This document shows, one piece after another, positions 14,935 to 62,169 of a stretch of DNA of 64,000 nucleotides. Source of the DNA: Nostocales cyanobacterium HT-58-2 (lineage in GTDB: Bacteria > Cyanobacteriota > Cyanobacteriia > Cyanobacteriales > Nostocaceae). Position 1 is the stretch's first letter; the number at the start of each line of letters is the position of its first letter. Made by a program: the position numbers and the translations under genes. Location: NCBI GenBank assembly GCA_002163975.1, contig CP019636.1, positions 4,963,501 to 5,027,500 on the forward strand, written 5' to 3'. The notes below the pieces were generated by a model. It ran no database searches. It was given only the letters and a program-made list of their open reading frames with translations, and was not told the origin of the DNA.

Positions 14935-16398
14935 TTACTTCTGTTGTTCTTGCACGTATTGCTGGTAAAATTCCAAAGCAACTGTCTCAATCACATCGTA
15001 GGCTTCAACCGTCTGAATTCCGAGTTTCTGCAATTTTTCCTTGGGACTGTCACCAATCTTAGAAACCAACACCGCTTTACAATCAGCGATCGTTTGGATG
15101 ATATTTTCTAGAGTGGCTTTCTCTCCATATCCACCTTGGCAATAGTGGTCTACTTTGCGATGTCCAACAAAGGAAACGCCATTGGCATCAACTTCATAAA
15201 TCTGGAATTCTTTGGCGTGACCAAAGTGCTGGTTAACCAATCCGCCGCCTTTAGTGGCTACAGCAACCAAGATTGGATTGATTTTTACAGATACTCCATT
15301 GGTCGTTTCTACAGCAGTGAGAGCCTTTTCTTTTGCTACTTTGAGTTCTTCTTTAAACTTCTCAATACCTGCATGAACTTCTTGGCGTTGTTGCAGGTCA
15401 TATTCTGGGGTCATTTCCATGAATTTAGCTTTAGTAAATTCCTGGCTGCGGTCTTCACCTAACAAACCGACTGCATCAGCACGACACTGGCGGCAATGAC
15501 GCATCATCTTCATATTACCAGCGCAGTTATCTTGCACTGTCTTTAGTTCTTTTGGTGTCGGACCACGCTGACCGGTTAAACCGAAATGGGTGCCGTGTTC
15601 CGGTGCAGAAATCAGCGGCATAATGTTGTGAAGGAATGCGCCTTTGGAGCGAATGACCTTATTCACCTCTATTAGGTGCTCATCATTAATCCCGGGAATC
15701 ATCACCGAGTTGACTTTGCACAAGATGTCGGCTTCCTTAAGAGCTTGTAGTCCTTCCATCTGCTTTTCATGCAGAATTTTGACCCCTTCAATGCCTCTAT
15801 AACGCTTGCGCTTGTAGTGAACCCAAGGATAAATCTTAGCCCCGATTTCTGGGTCCACCATGTTAATGGTGATAGTAACGTGGTCAATATTGAGTTGTTT
15901 TATGCGGTCTATATACTCGGGCAGCATTAAACCGTTGGTTGACAGACAAAGTTTGATATCTGGCGCTTTCTCTGCAATCAACTCAAAGGTGCGGAAAGTT
16001 TTTTCTGGATTTGCCAATGGATCGCCAGGACCTGCAATTCCCAAGACGGTCAATTGAGGAATCTTGCCTGCAATTACTAAAGCTTTGTGCGCTGCTTCTT
16101 CTGGGGTGAGTAATTCGCTCACAACTCCAGGACGGCTCTCATTTGCGCAATCGTATTTACGATTGCAATAGTTGCATTGAATGTTGCAAGCAGGAGCAAC
16201 TGCAACGTGCAATCTTGCGTAGTGATGATGAGCCTCTTCGCTGTAGCAGGGATGCGTAGCAATACGTTGTTTAAGTTTTTCGTCCATTTCCACAGTGGCG
16301 CTGCTGTCGCTATCGCATCCGCCGCAACCACTGGATTTTGCTTTGGTTGGTGTAGGTTCCGCAACTGGGGAGGTAACGAGTCCTGTAGACTGTGTCAT
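14935..16398 (-). CDS. nifB: FeMo-cofactor biosynthesis radical SAM protein NifB
   Basis: 487 residues from ATG 16398 ([10 protein letters not shown]); a TTG 12 bp upstream is a weaker start. The radical SAM motif CNIQCNYC is followed by [16 protein letters not shown], and [10 protein letters not shown] binds an accessory cluster. The C-terminal 110 residues form a NifX/NafY-like domain ([19 protein letters not shown]). It makes the NifB-co precursor of FeMo-co. It is the first gene of the nifB-fdxN-nifS-nifU-nifH-nifD run, with a composite promoter element at 16733-16936. Confidence 0.97.
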
Positions 16399-16410
16399 TG
16401 AATTTCGCAA

Positions 16411-17333
16411 GCGTGTCAGGTACGAACGTTGCCACTGTGGAAGATGCCATAGCCGCTCTGTTGAGTTAGGAATGGAAGCCGCGTCTTGTACTTGCGCTCT
16501 CTACCCCTTTTTCTCGGCTGGTGTGTGTCAACGCGCTTTGATTTGGGGGAAATTTGCGCGTAAAGCCGCGACTTCTGTTCACAGGGGCATGGTGCTATCT
16601 CATCCCTCCACTCACTCCGAAGCGCTGTTTTTGTTTGCGCTTTAAGTGTTGGCGATATAGGTTTTATATCAGTCGGCTTAAATTAGGGCAGCGTTTGTGT
16701 CCCGGATAGAATTTATTGGATTGATTAGATTTGTACTCAAAAATAAAAACCCTGACTCTTTGGGCATTGTAGGAATTACAAAACTTTTTTCTGGGTAGAG
16801 GTACTAGAATTTCTAGACTGGGGTTCTAGTATTTATGGAAATAGGGACAAGTATTTATGTACTCAAACAAAACCCAATCCACACAAGGGTTTGAGAAAAA
16901 TTTTAGCTTTCTTTTATCTTTTCTCTCTTGTACTCAAAGACCGATTTACAAACGTTTAGAGGACTAACTGAAGAGAGATTCTGGTTTTGGAAATCTGGAG
17001 CAGGTTACGGAGCGCTACTCCAGAAGTTTGCGAAATTCAATTCTGTATACAACATATCATTTTTTTTAATGGAAAAATGCAGTTTAAGTTTTTTTAATAT
17101 TTGCTATCTTCACAAATTTTAGATTTCCACAACACTTTTTCTCATTAACTGCTGCTGAAATTTAGATGCAGCAAGTAAGAATACAACGAGTTTTTCTTAT
17201 ATTTTATTCTATCTTAATGAGATTTTATCCTAATTTGTTGTCCTCGCTGTAGCGTGAACTCTTGCGATCGCCCAGAGCCCCGAGGGCAATAGTTCTCGCC
17301 GTAACGTAGTTGTTGCCTGACTAATACCGTTTC
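16411..17333. other. nifB upstream region
   Basis: More than 900 bp without a convincing gene. It holds the iteron/GTACTCA element (16733-16936). Between the element and nifB the minus strand reads AATCAATCCAATAAAT, also present downstream of the equivalent element before nifP. Several open frames here lack start signals and codon bias. Confidence 0.6.
16733..16936 (-). promoter_or_regulatory. Composite nif promoter element, copy A (nifB)
   Basis: On the plus strand: GTACTCA at 16733, iterons CTAGAATTT (16804), CTAGTATTT (16826) and CAAGTATTT (16848) spaced exactly 22 bp, GTACTCA at 16859 (11 bp after the last iteron start), and a third GTACTCA at 16930 (71 bp on). The same layout occurs before nifP and before cysK. 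The two-turn spacing implies a protein bound on one helix face. CnfR (PatB), the known activator of nifB in cyanobacteria, is the likely binder; that is inference. Confidence 0.8.
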
Positions 17334-18873: not shown

Positions 18874-19083
18874 TGAGTACAGATAGCTAGCTGTTAATTT
18901 ATGCAAAAATATCTTGCCTAAATCGCATAAAAGTCTTACAGGCAAGTGAGTTTCTATTGAGTACAGAAATACTTATCCCCCTCCCCCATAAATTCCAGTA
19001 CCCCAGCCCTAAAAATACTAGCACCCCTACCCCAACAAAGATTTTAAATTTCCATTAAATCAAAGTTTAGGGCTGGTGAGTAC
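18874..19083 (+). promoter_or_regulatory. Composite nif promoter element, copy B (nifP)
   Basis: Read on the minus strand: GTACTCA (19083-19077), 62 bp, then iterons CTAGTATTT (19021-19013), CTGGAATTT (18998-18990) and TAAGTATTT (18975-18967) spaced 23 bp, GTACTCA (18964-18958) exactly 11 bp after the last iteron start, and a distal GTACTCA (18880-18874). Relative to nifP it has the same orientation as copy A has to nifB. The gene-proximal flank AATCAATCCAATAAAT is shared with nifB. Distance to the nifP start is 112 bp. Confidence 0.8.
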
Positions 19084-19194
19084 AGCCTTAATCAATCCAA
19101 TAAATCCAATCGGCGTCGGATGTAAAGCTGTTTTTGCAAACACCTGATATAAGCAGAGAACATAGCACACGGCTATTTTCACCAAGCAGTACTG

Positions 19195-19962
19195 ATGCAA
19201 CAGCCCTTCGACCATATCAGGAATTCAAAGATTGTAAAAACGCTGGATGGTGGTCATTCCAACCAGCTTTCTACAATGCTTTCTGGCATTTCTCTTGAGC
19301 CACTATTGACTGATTTTCGCATCATATTTGAGCGAGATCCAGCAGCACGCAATTGGCTGGAGGTGCTGTTTTGTTACCCAGGATTTCATGCACTATGTTT
19401 GCATCGCATTGCTCATTGGTTACACCGTCGTGGAGTCACTTTTCTCCCCCGCTTCATTTCTCACTTGGGACGATTTTTTACAGGAATTGAAATTCACCCA
19501 GGTGCGCAGATTGGCAAGGGCGTGTTTATCGACCATGGTATGGGCGTTGTGATTGGCGAAACTGCAATTGTAGGAGACTATACACTGATTTACCAAGGTG
19601 TCACTCTTGGCGGAACGGGAAAAGAAAGTGGTAAACGCCATCCCACTCTGGGAAAAAACGTAGTTGTGGGGGCGGGTGCAAAAGTTTTAGGGAATATTCA
19701 AATTGGCGATCGCGTCCGTATTGGTGCAGGTTCAATTGTTTTGCGCAATGTCCCCTCAGATTCCACGGTTGTGGGAGTTCCTGGTCGAATTATTTCCCGT
19801 AAGCAAAACGAACAGCTCTCGCCTCTAGAACACGGAAAATTACCCGATTTAGAAGCGACTGTGATTCGCTCCTTGCTCGAACGTATTGAGCAACTTGAAC
19901 ACAAGCTACAAACTCTCACAAGTCAGAAGAAGGAAAAAGAATTGGTGACAAAGGAACGTTAA
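19195..19962 (+). CDS. nifP: Nif-specific serine O-acetyltransferase
   Basis: 255 residues. A CysE-type N-terminal helical region ([18 protein letters not shown]) precedes a left-handed beta-helix of hexapeptide repeats. Active-site motifs are [12 protein letters not shown] and [14 protein letters not shown]. It makes O-acetylserine for cysteine synthesis, meeting NifS demand for cysteine in nitrogen-fixing cells. The first 27 residues are unconserved, and an internal ATG gives [10 protein letters not shown] as a possible alternative start. The next gene follows after 2 bp, and a copy of the nifB-type element lies upstream. Confidence 0.93.
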
Positions 19963-43459: not shown

Positions 43460-44101
43460 TTGTACTTTCAATATCAGGAGCTGTTAGTAGCACAACGGCT
43501 TTACCCAAATCCTCGTGATTTTGAACAGGATACCCCAACACTTGAAGGGCAGGGTTTACCGCGAGTCTTTTGGATTTATCTGGGTGCTGTCGCACTTATT
43601 GCTACTGGGTATGCAGATTTTCCCCTCATTGCTTATCATCTCCAAAAAGAAGCCATAGCGACCGAGCAAACGATTCCCTTACTTTACGCTTTGGCTATGG
43701 GAGTTGATGCTATAGCCGCGTTGGTATTTGGGCGTCTTTTTGACCGTGCTGGCATTTCAATCCTCATCATTGCAGTTTTTCTGTCATTGATGTTTGCCCC
43801 GTTAGTTTTCTTAGGAAGTTCCAATCTTGCCCTTTTAGGAATGATTCTGTGGGGGATTGGTATGGGGGCACAGGAATCAATTTTGAAAGCTGCTGTCGCT
43901 GGGATGGTACCTATGGAAAAACGCGCTTCTGCTTACGGTACCTTCAGCGCTGGCTACGGTTTGGCTTGGTTTTTAGGGAGTGCCTTGATGGGGATATTAT
44001 ATGACCAATCAGTCAGCTTACTGGTTGTCTTTTCAGTCGTCATCCAATTTGCTGCTATTCCCATTTTATGGCTGGTAGGAAGGCACTCAAGAGCGTCATA
44101 A
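43460..44101 (+). pseudogene. MFS transporter, N-terminal half missing
   Basis: 213 residues corresponding only to the second half of a 12-helix major facilitator: about six membrane helices (VFWIYLGAVALIATGYADFP, LLGMILWGIGMGAQE) with RLFDRAGISIL between. The region before it has no helices and follows hypB by 28 bp, so the 5' half was probably deleted. Whether the fragment is still made is unknown. Confidence 0.7.
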
Positions 44102-44467
44102 CCAATCTCGATAAGCCGATATTTCATTCACGCTGATTTCAAACGGTGTCCCCTTACCAAATGGAGGATAGACGCGAATTCTGGCGCTACTGGCAAACCG
44201 TTCCAGCCTATTTCCAATTGGTGGAATATTGCTGACTATGTGCCAGTAGGTCACTATGTCAGGACAGTCAATGACCAGCATGAGATTGCCACCATCTGTC
44301 GTAATATACCACTGACAGCTAGATAACAATGCTCGCGTAATCTGGTCGCACGCTTCAAAAAAGCATCTGCCTGTGGAATGTTCGAGTTGCGATCGCAGTA
44401 TTCTATCAAGTTGCGTTGCCTCAGTTGAAGGCAAATCATCTGGAGGAAGAAAGGATCTATTTTTCAT
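44096..44467 (-). CDS. Conserved hypothetical protein, paralogue of 28.8 kb gene
   Basis: 123 residues starting MKNRSFLPPDD after GGAAGGGGTTGGT. The conserved text (LRSQLEHSTGRCFFEACD, SSCQWYIT, SSARIRVYPPFGKG, NEISAYRDWL) matches the gene at 28774-29145 throughout. It overlaps the end of the truncated MFS gene by 6 bp. No motif or membrane segment. Role unknown. Confidence 0.75.
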   Translation of the reverse strand: MKNRSFLPPDDLPSTEATQLDRILRSQLEHSTGRCFFEACDQITRALLSSCQWYITTDGGNLMLVIDCPDIVTYWHIVSNIPPIGNRLERFASSARIRVYPPFGKGTPFEISVNEISAYRDWL

Positions 44468-44523
44468 ACCAACCCCTTCCGGTTGTGGGTGAGTTTACAG
44501 GAAGTTTCGTTCACTACATATTC

Positions 44524-44889
44524 CTAAGTTGTGACCAATTGCAAATCCAACCATAGGCGCGGATATATGTGCTTAATCTTTGACATTGGATCGCGTAGTA
44601 GTCGCGTTGCATTAAGGAAAACAACTTGAACTAGCCCCATATTTTCTGCTATTTCTCTTAAAACTTCTTTGTGAGTTTGCAGATGGGGCATCATTTTTTC
44701 AGAGCAATAAATTCCTATGTATCGCAAGCGTTTAGGAGGTCGTCCCCAGTAAGAGGAAATAACTTTCACATAACAGTCGTCTAGTAATTCCCCTACTTTT
44801 GGGTAATAGTGATTGACGACCCTCATAAATTCTTTTGCTAGGATGTCTTCACTAATCATGACAAAAGATATTTTTGTAGGGATTGTCAC
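44524..44889 (-). CDS. Hypothetical protein
   Basis: 121 residues from a GTG, or 111 from the ATG giving MISEDILAKEFMRVVNHYY. It is soluble, with WGRPPKRLRYIGIYC in the middle and YPRLWLDLQLVTT at the end. No family recognised. It precedes the 44.1-kb gene by 56 bp and may be cotranscribed with it. Confidence 0.6.
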   Translation of the reverse strand: MTIPTKISFVMISEDILAKEFMRVVNHYYPKVGELLDDCYVKVISSYWGRPPKRLRYIGIYCSEKMMPHLQTHKEVLREIAENMGLVQVVFLNATRLLRDPMSKIKHIYPRLWLDLQLVTT

Positions 44890-45146
44890 ATGATTTAATA
44901 TAACATAAATTTGTTATATGAATATAACGATCTATCCTAAGTTATTATAAAATTAGGATTTAAATTTTGTATTTATATTCAAAAAAATAACTAAAAACGT
45001 AGAATAAGTCACATATATCCTACATTTTTAGTTATTTAGTAGATGCAAAAAATTAATGCTTAAAAGAAAATACAAATGACAATTAAAAAAAATTGCACTT
45101 CACTTGTATATATCCATTTGAGTTTTGAATTTCAACCTGTCATTCT

Positions 45147-45458
45147 TTATCGAGCATTACGCTCTGATACCAACACCTCTGCTACTAGGTGTGGTAAATC
45201 ACCAAGGTCAACATATCCGTCTGAACCACTTATCGGAGAAATAAATGTGTAATTTGGATCGCACGCTCCAGTATCGTAAACTTGGATATACCACCTATCA
45301 GGAAATCCTTCGACAGCCAGTTCCACAATATACCAACTTTGACCGATCAGGCTAGAGTTGACAATGACAAACCATTGTCTATCTTTTTCTAGGATATTCC
45401 AATCAGCCATGAGGAATTCTAACGCTATTTGTCCCGCGTCAGTTGCAGTCAATAACAT
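45147..45458 (-). CDS. Hypothetical protein, third gene of putative nif-linked operon
   Basis: 103 residues, soluble, with WFVIVNSSLIGQSWYIVELA and FPDRWYIQVYDTGACDP. A clear AAGGAG precedes the ATG and contains the stop region of the upstream gene, so the two are coupled. No known domain. The operon promoter region carries composite element C. Confidence 0.7.
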   Translation of the reverse strand: MLLTATDAGQIALEFLMADWNILEKDRQWFVIVNSSLIGQSWYIVELAVEGFPDRWYIQVYDTGACDPNYTFISPISGSDGYVDLGDLPHLVAEVLVSERNAR

Positions 45459-45461
45459 TAT

Positions 45462-45713
45462 TTACTCCTTTTTTGGAATCTCAGGATACAATCCCAATTG
45501 CTTAGATAGTTCACGTGCAATATGGATAAGAAACTGCGCACCATCTTGATTTCCTTGGTGTGCAAATCCAGTTGCTACTTGTAATACTGTCTGTATGAAG
45601 CCAGCATCAATTAATTCTGGTTGAGCTTCTAAAACTTCTGGTTCTTGACCATTGGGACAACGCAGTAGCTGGTCAATGAGATTGAAATACAAGTCTTGTC
45701 TTTGTTCTGTCAT
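45462..45713 (-). CDS. Small helical protein, second gene of putative nif-linked operon
   Basis: About 83 residues from ATG 45713 (MTEQRQDLYFNLIDQLLRC); a TTG six codons upstream overlaps the previous gene. The sequence (LRCPNGQEPEVLEAQPELID, FIQTVLQVATGFAHQGNQDG, AQFLIHIARELSKQLGL) looks like the helical N-terminal segment that precedes TPR/CHAT regions in larger cyanobacterial proteins, here standing alone. Function unknown. Confidence 0.7.
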   Translation of the reverse strand: MTEQRQDLYFNLIDQLLRCPNGQEPEVLEAQPELIDAGFIQTVLQVATGFAHQGNQDGAQFLIHIARELSKQLGLYPEIPKKE

Positions 45714-45720
45714 GGTTAGT

Positions 45721-46128
45721 TTATTGTTCAATACCCTGTTGCCAAAGCCGTTCTAGCATTTCTACTTGTTTTTGAAAAACAGTAGCACGATAAATGAGAT
45801 ATCTGTCATAGAAAAAAATGAGTATTCCCAGAAAAATAGGGAATAACAAAAAAGACCAATGTAATATTTGGACAATTTTATGTTTTTTCGTTATTGCTAA
45901 AGATTCCTTCAGAAAATGAGTGGTAGAAAAGTTTACCTCAGAACTTTCTTGTTTTGATTCTGATTTAACTGGACTGGTAACATTTTGAGGAGTTTGACAA
46001 GCTAAAGTCTTTGTTTGTTTTAACTCTAGATGTTGCTCCCAAACTATACTAAAGACGACCAACTCAGGAGAAAAGACCAAGACTGTGACTAAAGAAACTG
46101 TCAGTAATTGAACAACTTTAAATTTCAT
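45721..46128 (-). CDS. Two-helix membrane protein, first gene of putative nif-linked operon
   Basis: 135 residues. Helix 1 is at the N-terminus (VVQLLTVSLVTVLVFSPELV), then a polar loop, then helix 2 (ILHWSFLLFPIFLGILIFFY) and a charged tail (FQKQVEMLERLWQQG). No family recognised. It heads the 46.1-45.1 kb operon, and element C at 46329-46523 lies 201 bp upstream in the orientation used by nifB and nifP. Confidence 0.7.
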   Translation of the reverse strand: MKFKVVQLLTVSLVTVLVFSPELVVFSIVWEQHLELKQTKTLACQTPQNVTSPVKSESKQESSEVNFSTTHFLKESLAITKKHKIVQILHWSFLLFPIFLGILIFFYDRYLIYRATVFQKQVEMLERLWQQGIEQ

Positions 46129-46328
46129 TCAACTATTACTGTTAACTGTTAGCTGTTAACTGTTAACTGTTCAAGGGCTAAGAAGTCCCCCCTCATTCAT
46201 CGGCTTTCACCTTGGAATTTCGGGGGGTAGAGGGGAATCTCTGCGTAAATCCTATATGATTTATATCATCTGTCTTAAGAGAGAATAATTGACTGCACTA
46301 GATCAAGATTATTAGAATAATTGTGATT
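46129..46328. repeat. Heptamer repeat and upstream region
   Basis: At 46138-46170 there are about four units of TTAACTG, a heptamer STRR, immediately before the membrane-protein gene. The remainder has no gene. Confidence 0.6.
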
Positions 46329-46523
46329 GTACTCAAACCCTGGAATTGTTATCATGTAAAGGTTTTGAAAATTTCTTGAGGTATGGGTACTAGACTTTTG
46401 AGGTAGGGGTCCTAGTATTTACGAAATAGGGTTCTAGCATTTCTGTACTCAATATCAAAGCTCTATACACTTTGGTCTTGGCAAGGTTTTTCAATATTCA
46501 TTTCAAGAGAAAGCTTGTACTCA
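46329..46523. promoter_or_regulatory. Composite nif promoter element, copy C (cysK / unknown operon)
   Basis: Plus strand: GTACTCA at 46329; iterons CTAGACTTT (46390), CTAGTATTT (46412) and CTAGCATTT (46434), spaced exactly 22 bp; GTACTCA at 46445, 11 bp after the last iteron start; GTACTCA at 46517, 72 bp on. It lies between divergent genes: cysK starts 194 bp to the right, the unknown operon 201 bp to the left. Its orientation matches nifB and nifP for the left operon, but it may serve both. Confidence 0.8.
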
Positions 46524-46716
46524 AAAAATGTATTACCATGCAAATATATAGTTTCTGAATTTCACAGTTCATAAAAACTTTTAAAATTTTCAACTTTGTT
46601 CAAGACTAACAGCACAGAAAACATTTTATAAAAACTCTCTAAAATCAACTTTTTTGACTTGAATTTCTTAATTTCCCCACACCTTGATGAAAAGATATCT
46701 TTCTAGGAGATAATTC

Positions 46717-47676
46717 ATGCGGATTGCTCAAGACATTACAGAACTTATTGGACGAACTCCTTTAGTTGAGCTGAACAAGATTCCTCAAGCTGAGGGATGT
46801 GTGGGAAAAATTGTTGTGAAATTAGAAGGAATGAACCCAGCAGCTTCAGTCAAAGACCGCATTGCTGCAAGTATGGTGAAAGAGGCAGAGGAAGCAGGGC
46901 TGATTCACCCAGGAAAAAGCATTTTAGTTGAACCAACCTCCGGTAATACAGGAATTGGACTGGCAATGGTAGCGGCGGCGCGTGGCTACCGTTTGATTTT
47001 GACAATGCCCGAAACTATGAGTTTAGAACGACGCGCTATGTTACGAGCATATGGCGCTTCTTTGGAATTAACACCAGGGCTTGAGGGAATGCGGGGTGCC
47101 ATTCGTGCAGCAGAAGAAATCGTCGCCAACACTCCTGATGCTTTTATGTTGCAACAATTTCGCAACTCAGCGAATCCCAAAATTCATCGAGAAACCACAG
47201 CCGAGGAGATTTGGGCAGATACCGATGGGCAAGTCGATATCGTCATTGCAGGTGTCGGTACTGGTGGAACAATTACTGGAATTGCGGAAGCCCTCAAAGG
47301 GCGCAAACCATCGTTCAAAGCGATCGCCGTAGAACCAAGCAATAGTTCCGTCCTTTCAGGAGGTCAACCAGGATCGCATAAAATCCAAGGTATTGGTGCT
47401 GGATTCATTCCAGAGGTGCTTCGCATGGATTTGATAGATGAAGTAATAACCGTCAGCGATGAAGAGGCGATCGCCTACGGACGGCGCTTAGCAAGGGAAG
47501 AAGGTTTATTATCTGGGATTTCCTCTGGCGCAGCTTTGTATGCTGCAGTTCAAGTTGCGAAACGCCCACAAAATTCAGGTCGTCTAATCGTGATGATTCA
47601 ACCTTCCTACGGCGAACGTTACCTCAGCACTCCAATGTTTCAATTCGCCCAGAAGGCTGCGCAGTTGTCAGGGTAA
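46717..47676 (+). CDS. cysK: Cysteine synthase A (O-acetylserine sulfhydrylase)
   Basis: 319 residues, PLP fold II. The PLP lysine is in [29 protein letters not shown] and [15 protein letters not shown] bind the cofactor phosphate and substrate; [12 protein letters not shown] is near the C-terminus. It makes cysteine from O-acetylserine (product of NifP) and sulfide. Sharing the composite promoter element with nifP suggests a dedicated cysteine branch for nitrogenase assembly. It starts after TAGGAGATAATTC. Confidence 0.95.
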
Positions 47677-62051: not shown

Positions 62052-62169
62052 AAGTAGGCAGACAGAACTTTTTGTAGGATGCGGTCTTCCTTTGAGTACA
62101 GTATCAATCGCTCAGACAGCATGGGTACTCAAAGGCTACACATCCTACATTTTTTCACGTCGAGCTACT
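62052..62169. repeat. Dispersed repeat pair, copy 2
   Basis: AAGTAGGCAGACAGAACTTT at the left, CAGCATGGGTACTCAAAGG internally and GAGCTACTT at the right: the same frame as 22611-22819 but without the nested GC-rich repeat. It lies between infC and hyuB. Confidence 0.65.

Follow-up and report, generated by a model that had tools for sequence, protein, structure and literature searches.

Predicted CnfR activation sites upstream of nifB, nifP and a putative small-protein operon with a conserved leader RNA in the cyanobacterium HT-58-2

Layout and orientation of the composite elements

The window, a stretch of 64,000 nucleotides from Nostocales cyanobacterium HT-58-2, contains three copies of a composite element, of which one lies upstream of nifB, one upstream of nifP and the third between five small minus-strand reading frames and the plus-strand gene cysK, with a conserved leader RNA on the side of the small frames (Table 1). 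The first-pass annotation of this DNA had described three loci with a single architecture, and its positions and spacings were all confirmed. The first GTACTCA box is followed by the first of three iterons after 71 (nifB), 62 (nifP) and 61 bp (third copy), the iterons are spaced by 22/22, 23/23 and 22/22 bp, the third iteron is followed by a second GTACTCA after 11 bp in all three copies, and the distance from there to a third box is 71, 84 and 72 bp, three GTACTCA boxes being present in 3/3 copies. An extra box, overlooked in that annotation, is furthermore found about 20 bp ahead of the first GTACTCA and reads TTATTGGATTGATTA with the same letters at nifB and nifP, and TTATTAGAATAATTG at the third copy.

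Table 1. Features of the window, in window coordinates. R1 is the element profile; its E values are for the whole genome and the three copies belong to its training set.
Feature	Position	Strand	Details
nifB	14935-16410	-	served by the nifB element
Extended -10 TGATATAA of nifB	16664..16671	-	68 bp from proximal TGAGTAC
CnfR-type composite element of nifB	16704..16941	+	R1 131.9 bits, E 7.1e-38
Parts of the nifB element	16713-16727; 16733/16859/16930; 16804/16826/16848	+	extra box; GTACTCA boxes; iterons
CnfR-type composite element of nifP	18874..19113	-	R1 E 1.5e-48; profile match 18877-19113
Parts of the nifP element	19089-19103; 19077/18958/18874	-	extra box; GTACTCA boxes (distal one 18874-18880)
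Extended -10 TGATATAA of nifP	19145..19152	+	68 bp from proximal TGAGTAC
nifP	19195-19962	+	served by the nifP element
Five small reading frames, taken as an operon	44096..46128	-	135, 89, 103, 121 and 123 aa; downstream of the third promoter
Conserved leader RNA (about 75 nt)	46179..46253	-	5' AGGATTTACGCAGAGATTCCCCTCTA, C6:G6 hairpin with covarying tip, 3' ACTTCTTA
Extended -10 TGATATAA of third promoter	46261..46268	-	67 bp from proximal TGAGTAC
Third CnfR-type composite element	46299..46527	+	R1 E 2.4e-35
Parts of the third element	46309-46323; 46329/46445/46517	+	extra box; GTACTCA boxes
cysK (TIGR01139)	46717..47676	+	divergent neighbour, judged not the target

Each element points away from its gene, being in plus orientation before the minus-strand nifB and in minus orientation before the plus-strand nifP, and on the gene side an extended -10 is found at an almost fixed distance from the start of the proximal TGAGTAC (Table 1). 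The same TGATATAA is present at 67-68 bp in all 20 fetched sites of the third type. Counted over 54 of 57 nifB elements of other genomes, the three weakest (L162, L174, L179) being left out, a proximal box can be recognised in 53, every one of which carries TGnTAnn[AT] 66-68 bp from it. The extra box and the extended -10 complete the predicted promoter.

The spacings were also compared in 27 distinct cores, which were found by one core pattern in the fetched loci and are related copies and not independent ones. Here the distance between the first and second box is 115-119 (23 cores) or 126-129 (4 cores) and never 120-125, and among the 25 cores with one clear third box the second and third box are 70-74 (23) or 84 (2) apart. 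These values fit steps of about one helical turn, as had been proposed from the window, and would be compatible with a multimer assembled along one helix face. Possibly the distal box is not needed, since in locus L010 of genome G044 (1416-1657) the element lacks its distal third, where a GC-rich palindromic stretch is found instead, and since in six further third sites (L190, L191, L195, L205, L211, L220) the profile matched over roughly the proximal two thirds only; L010, with other DNA in place of the distal box, was left out of alignment A1.

The GTACTCA box is over-represented in the window (18 occurrences against 5.6 expected, a number reached in 0 of 100 shuffles). The iteron alone, with one mismatch allowed, is not enriched (22 against 19.7 expected), and it is therefore the layout that carries the signal. 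A regular expression for the full layout, composed after the three copies had been seen, matches the window 3 times and none of 200 dinucleotide shuffles. The first pass had not seen the layout before nifH, nifV, hupS or hypF, and the rest of the window does lack it, there being just three strong profile matches. A pair of GTACTCA boxes at 62093 (-) and 62125 (+) was rejected as an element part, as it belongs to an unrelated inverted repeat at 62062-62152 that looks like a small palindromic repeat.

Distribution of the element and its predicted reader

In the whole 7.9 Mb genome the exact core pattern occurs in three places and its reversed control in none. A search of 84,980 species genomes with the reverse complement of the pattern gave 27 places, each under a cyanobacterial title, and these stretches comprise 18 with nifB and/or nifP, 7 third-type loci with the leader and 2 with neither. 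A sequence-only profile, R1, was trained on 17 elements of one group, the window's three included, and in the window's genome it returns three strong matches (all from the training set), one weak match with an E value of 1.4e-3 and two with E above 1.

Across a sample of 388 genomes of the class, R1 matches 138 at E<=0.01 and nifB scores over its cut-off in 127. At E<=1e-6 the element is found in 123 genomes, 114 of which have nifB, and thus in 114 of the 127 nifB genomes, the exceptions being 13 nifB genomes without the element and 9 element genomes without nifB over the cut-off, two of which (G384 and G404) hold nifB fragments below it. The corresponding Fisher value is 3e-71, which ignores kinship among genomes that are related to each other. 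In a sample consisting of the first 60 nifB genes listed, the window's excluded, with up to 2 kb upstream of each (684 bp in one case), 57 have the element upstream in the expected orientation. A farther, divergent element accompanies 43 of these and 14 have one alone, and where both orientations occur the nearest element is never the wrong way round. The remaining 3 regions have no element in the expected orientation, and among them L171 shows a single weak opposite match (12.6 bits). The layout exceeds chance expectation, and the 7.9 Mb genome has only three strong copies. In genome G020 the nearest listed element (C1:3886918-3887155) lies about 6 kb upstream of nifB (C1:3893250) and none is found within 2 kb, perhaps after an insertion.

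A cis-element of CnfR (PatB) at nifB and nifP has been described by Tsujimoto 2016 (Mol Microbiol 101:411), as cited in PMC8510180 and PMC5943405. According to the excerpts of PMC8510180 used here, three conserved cis elements (CS1-CS3) upstream of Anabaena variabilis nifB1 and nifB2 and of Leptolyngbya boryana nifB are regarded as binding sites of CnfR, nifB1 is transcribed less when the first two are missing, and the promoters of these genes have an extended -10 and no -35, and the corresponding part of PMC5943405 describes divergent nifB and nifP genes activated by CnfR, with motifs I to IX. The window's elements share with these systems, as far as described there, the position upstream of nifB and nifP, the three conserved blocks, the divergent gene pair and the extended -10. 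In view of these descriptions and of the single CnfR gene found in the window's genome (G000:C1:254034-255611), we equate the copies at nifB and nifP with the known CnfR element, with the three GTACTCA boxes probably corresponding to CS1-CS3. The proposal of a CnfR operator made in the first pass is accordingly well supported, but for nifB and nifP it was already published and this part is not new. The encoded CnfR is 58% identical to a CnfR-like protein of another genome and has a 4Fe-4S-type match at 43-101 and a helix-turn-helix-type match at 511-564, both under the families' own cut-offs. CnfR is active at low oxygen by way of its Fe-S sites.

Expression of nif genes in heterocysts indirectly requires NtcA and HetR, and one of these, or some other activator of nitrogen metabolism, might be thought to read the element in place of CnfR. 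We find this very improbable, since none of the 12 GTAN8TAC matches in the window, a number near chance (9.4), falls inside any of the three elements, so that NtcA was rejected as the reader, since the element co-occurs with nifB in other families too, and since the same upstream regions have been published as CnfR sites (PMC8510180, PMC5943405, in the parts used here).

The third copy, its putative operon and its leader RNA

The first-pass annotation, which holds with respect to the layout and the CnfR reading, had tied the third copy to cysK or an unknown operon, and the cysK half of this assignment is not supported. As the elements point away from the gene they serve, the partner of the third copy would be the leftward small-protein operon, and the orientation of the element, its extended -10 and the conserved leader are all directed to that side. 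At 20 third sites of the window's family, picked by coordinate among the matches listed, the element, its orientation and the operon are kept throughout, with the element upstream of orthologues of the 135-, 89-, 103- and 121-aa frames, and cysK is found on the other side at 18. The remaining two (L067 and L073) keep element and operon and have no cysK in the approximately 3.3-3.4 kb seen on that side. As the target, cysK was rejected on the grounds of orientation, -10 position and gene loss.

A variant of the cysK assignment, by which the element works in both directions and cysK is a further or even the main target of the third copy, would link the O-acetylserine made by NifP to cysteine synthase, and it draws on the frequent divergent neighbourhood as well as on the consecutive action of NifP and CysK (PMC6428710, in the part used here). 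It is nonetheless unlikely, since both orientation and the fixed-distance -10 face the operon at 20/20 sites as well as in the window, since no TGnTA-type -10 is found on the cysK side of the window as far as printed, and since orthologues of the operon occur under weaker elements in other families with no cysK in the approximately 6 kb fetched. The co-occurrence of the element with operon orthologues, together with the overlap of orf89-like sequences with nifB (found at about E<=2e-18 in 92 of 388 genomes, 82 of the 92 with nifB), likewise ties the operon rather than cysK to CnfR-type control.

In family searches that each covered some or all of its frames, the operon gave no match in NCBIfam, PADLOC or PHROGs and none above cut-off in Pfam. 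AlphaFold models of the 103- and 121-aa proteins have a mean pLDDT of 87 (8 sequences) and 84 (6 sequences, the alignment leaving out L104 and L116, whose stretches held stops), and neither has a PDB match at E<=0.001; an OsmC/Ohr-like identity of the 121-aa protein, suggested by weak structural matches with a best E of 0.011, was not relied on. In PCC 7120, asr0701 and alr0702 are described as lying downstream of hypB (PMC2408588, in the part used here), and the gene order of the window is therefore not transferable to that strain.

The start of the leader is predicted from the -10, and the sequence directly behind this -10, AGGATTTACGCAGAGATTCCCCTCTACCCCCC, is common to all 20 third sites, which had been selected for the element and not for the leader. 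A search for a 32-base core of the leader that tolerated up to 3 mismatches gave a single occurrence in each of 46 among 48 genomes of the window's family, of which 43 are perfect and 3 have one mismatch, and none in 32 genomes of other families of the order, the control also giving 0. A 28-base piece of the core occurs once in each of the 13 genomes of one genus of the family. Together with the window and the 20 third sites, 36 more loci found by the core itself make up a set of 57, in which TGnTATAA is present at -15/-16 from the leader in 57/57 and TGAGTA at -82 to -84 in 49/57. All 36 core-found loci carry the element in the same orientation, and orf135 follows the leader in 55 of 56 loci, with 78-513 nt between the two starts. 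Within the class sample a structure model, R2, recovers every one of the 24 genomes that belong to the family, at E<=1.2e-12, and outside them it gives only E>=1.7e-3, and the leader RNA has so far been found only in the heterocyst-forming family. Its presence does not track nifB within the family, as it is found in 3 of 4 genomes without nifB over the cut-off and is absent from 1 of 44 with nifB. An origin as a dispersed repeat was rejected on account of the single copy in each of the 46 genomes having the core, and a leader peptide on account of a core free of ATG, GTG, TTG and CTG and of hairpin length changes that do not come in threes.

In all 57 loci GGGGGG[AG]CTTCTT closes a hairpin with a loop of 7-31 nt. 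In the distal helix 7 of 9 pairs have changes on both sides, and in the whole structure 37 cells are changed on both sides, a score reached by 0 of 500 shuffles and compared with at most 19 in slid versions. Alignment A2 left out 12 of 56 distinct leaders (9 with short loops and 3 near-duplicates), all of which are back in A3, and a model-fitted alignment of all 57 leaders has 7 pairs with 49 cells changed on both sides. RNAalifold alone reported no covariation and left out the distal helix. The helices AGGA:UCUU, AGAG:CUCU and C6:G6 hardly vary, for which reason they prove nothing on pairing and are only compatible with it, and the folding energies of four leaders are just 1.7-2.9 sd better than those of shuffles. 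Behind the C6:G6 hairpin comes the weak U tract CUUCUU, and a simple scan found no intrinsic (Rho-independent) terminator after the leader in the window. Rfam gave 0 matches in the window at the gathering score, and only two sub-threshold matches (E 0.16 and 0.8) on 901 bases around the leader.

The conserved block could alternatively be a DNA site, bound by a protein downstream of the start, a notion compatible with the near-invariant helices, which cannot show covariation. Conservation does begin at the predicted start, as such a site would allow, but the C6 and G6 arms stay complementary while the intervening stretch varies from 7 to 31 nt, a spacing hardly tolerable for a pair of half-sites, and the tip helix covaries, so that we regard a DNA site as quite unlikely.

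From the observed sequence, spacing, orientation and conservation of the elements and the one CnfR gene, we estimate with a probability of roughly 85% that all three elements are CnfR (PatB) activation sites and that the predicted operon with its leader is under control of the third. CnfR carries 4Fe-4S sites at its N-terminus and an XRE-type helix-turn-helix at its C-terminus. At low oxygen it would occupy the phased array of GTACTCA boxes and iterons and bring RNA polymerase to the extended -10 promoter, which is placed at 66-68 bp from the proximal box and leads away from the array. In the window's genome it would thereby switch on nifB, nifP and the small-protein operon, the third transcript presumably beginning with the structured leader that the heterocyst-forming family has in common. 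The element as such was known already; what is new is the predicted third target operon and probably also the family-wide conserved RNA, and a small-ORF operon with a leader RNA is not among the targets in the excerpts of the L. boryana and A. variabilis descriptions used here.

With an AUUCCC loop present and no terminator detected, the leader might regulate its operon, be processed into a free RNA, or both. Most probably it either controls the operon behind it in cis or is set free from that operon, and it may also work in trans. We tentatively suggest, at somewhat less than even odds, that the leader is a switch, or that it acts in trans on ribosome-binding sites through the C-rich loop AUUCCC, so that CnfR control would be post-transcriptional as well; the leader could in this way add a further layer to oxygen-controlled nitrogen fixation. 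With riboswitch-type leaders it shares a compact multi-helix form, invariant unpaired stretches, one variable arm and a position upstream of an operon, but it has no Rfam match, no expression platform was seen and the distance to the orf135 start is widely variable. A trans target sought in the window as a near-complement of the 5' part of the leader was rejected, only the leader itself being found.

The leader might also be one of the heterocystous-only sRNAs already catalogued in Nostoc PCC 7120 (PMC4734099, in the part used here), namely NsiR9 (4451847f, 122 nt) or 4408600f (236 nt). Both are confined to heterocyst formers, as are NsiR8 and the window leader, and their reads go up under nitrogen deficiency in the wild type, an increase that a hetR mutant does not show (Table 1 of PMC4734099; the loss of induction applies to NsiR8 too). 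This is what would be expected of a CnfR-driven RNA. Their lengths exceed the conserved 75 nt, however, and the window leader fronts a protein operon with no terminator detected behind it, and we consider this identity less likely than not, though far from remote. A text search of the literature with pieces of the leader sequence returned only unrelated papers (on chickens, by title).

Further candidate targets

The orientation rule, the extra box and the -10 at 66-68 bp should turn the element into a predictor of the CnfR regulon. Weaker, shorter matches were sampled in 20 loci (L074-L093, one from the window's own genome), of which a local search recovered 19. A share of the weak matches may be due to chance, given that L086 was not recovered and that the first downstream frames of L083, L085 and L089 suggest no nif link. 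Operon orthologues are found under weaker elements in other families, with orf121 as the first gene behind the element in L074 and L092, orf89/orf103 behind one or two other genes in L076, L088 and L091, and orf123 behind an ArsC-like gene in L084 and L090. A weaker element also lies ahead of an ArsC-like gene in L080 and in L074, where it is the second gene and its product matches TIGR01616, nitrogenase-associated. In L075, L081 and L091, and similarly in L079, a weaker element is found upstream of a ParB-like gene beside CnfR-like frames, and the L075 protein, the one such protein run against families, is ParB_N.

The new regulon candidates would thus be the conserved operon of nif-linked proteins, ArsC-like nitrogenase-associated genes, ParB-like genes near cnfR-like genes and, weakly, nifJ, and elements at orf121, orf89/orf103 and the ArsC-like and ParB-like genes are absent from the excerpts of the L. 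boryana and A. variabilis descriptions used here. In L075 two CnfR-like frames flank the ParB-domain gene. The weak fourth element of the window's genome (G000:C1:1417356-1417448, E 1.4e-3; about 2957-3048 of L093) ends 582 bp before a frame read by eye as nifJ (pyruvate:ferredoxin oxidoreductase).
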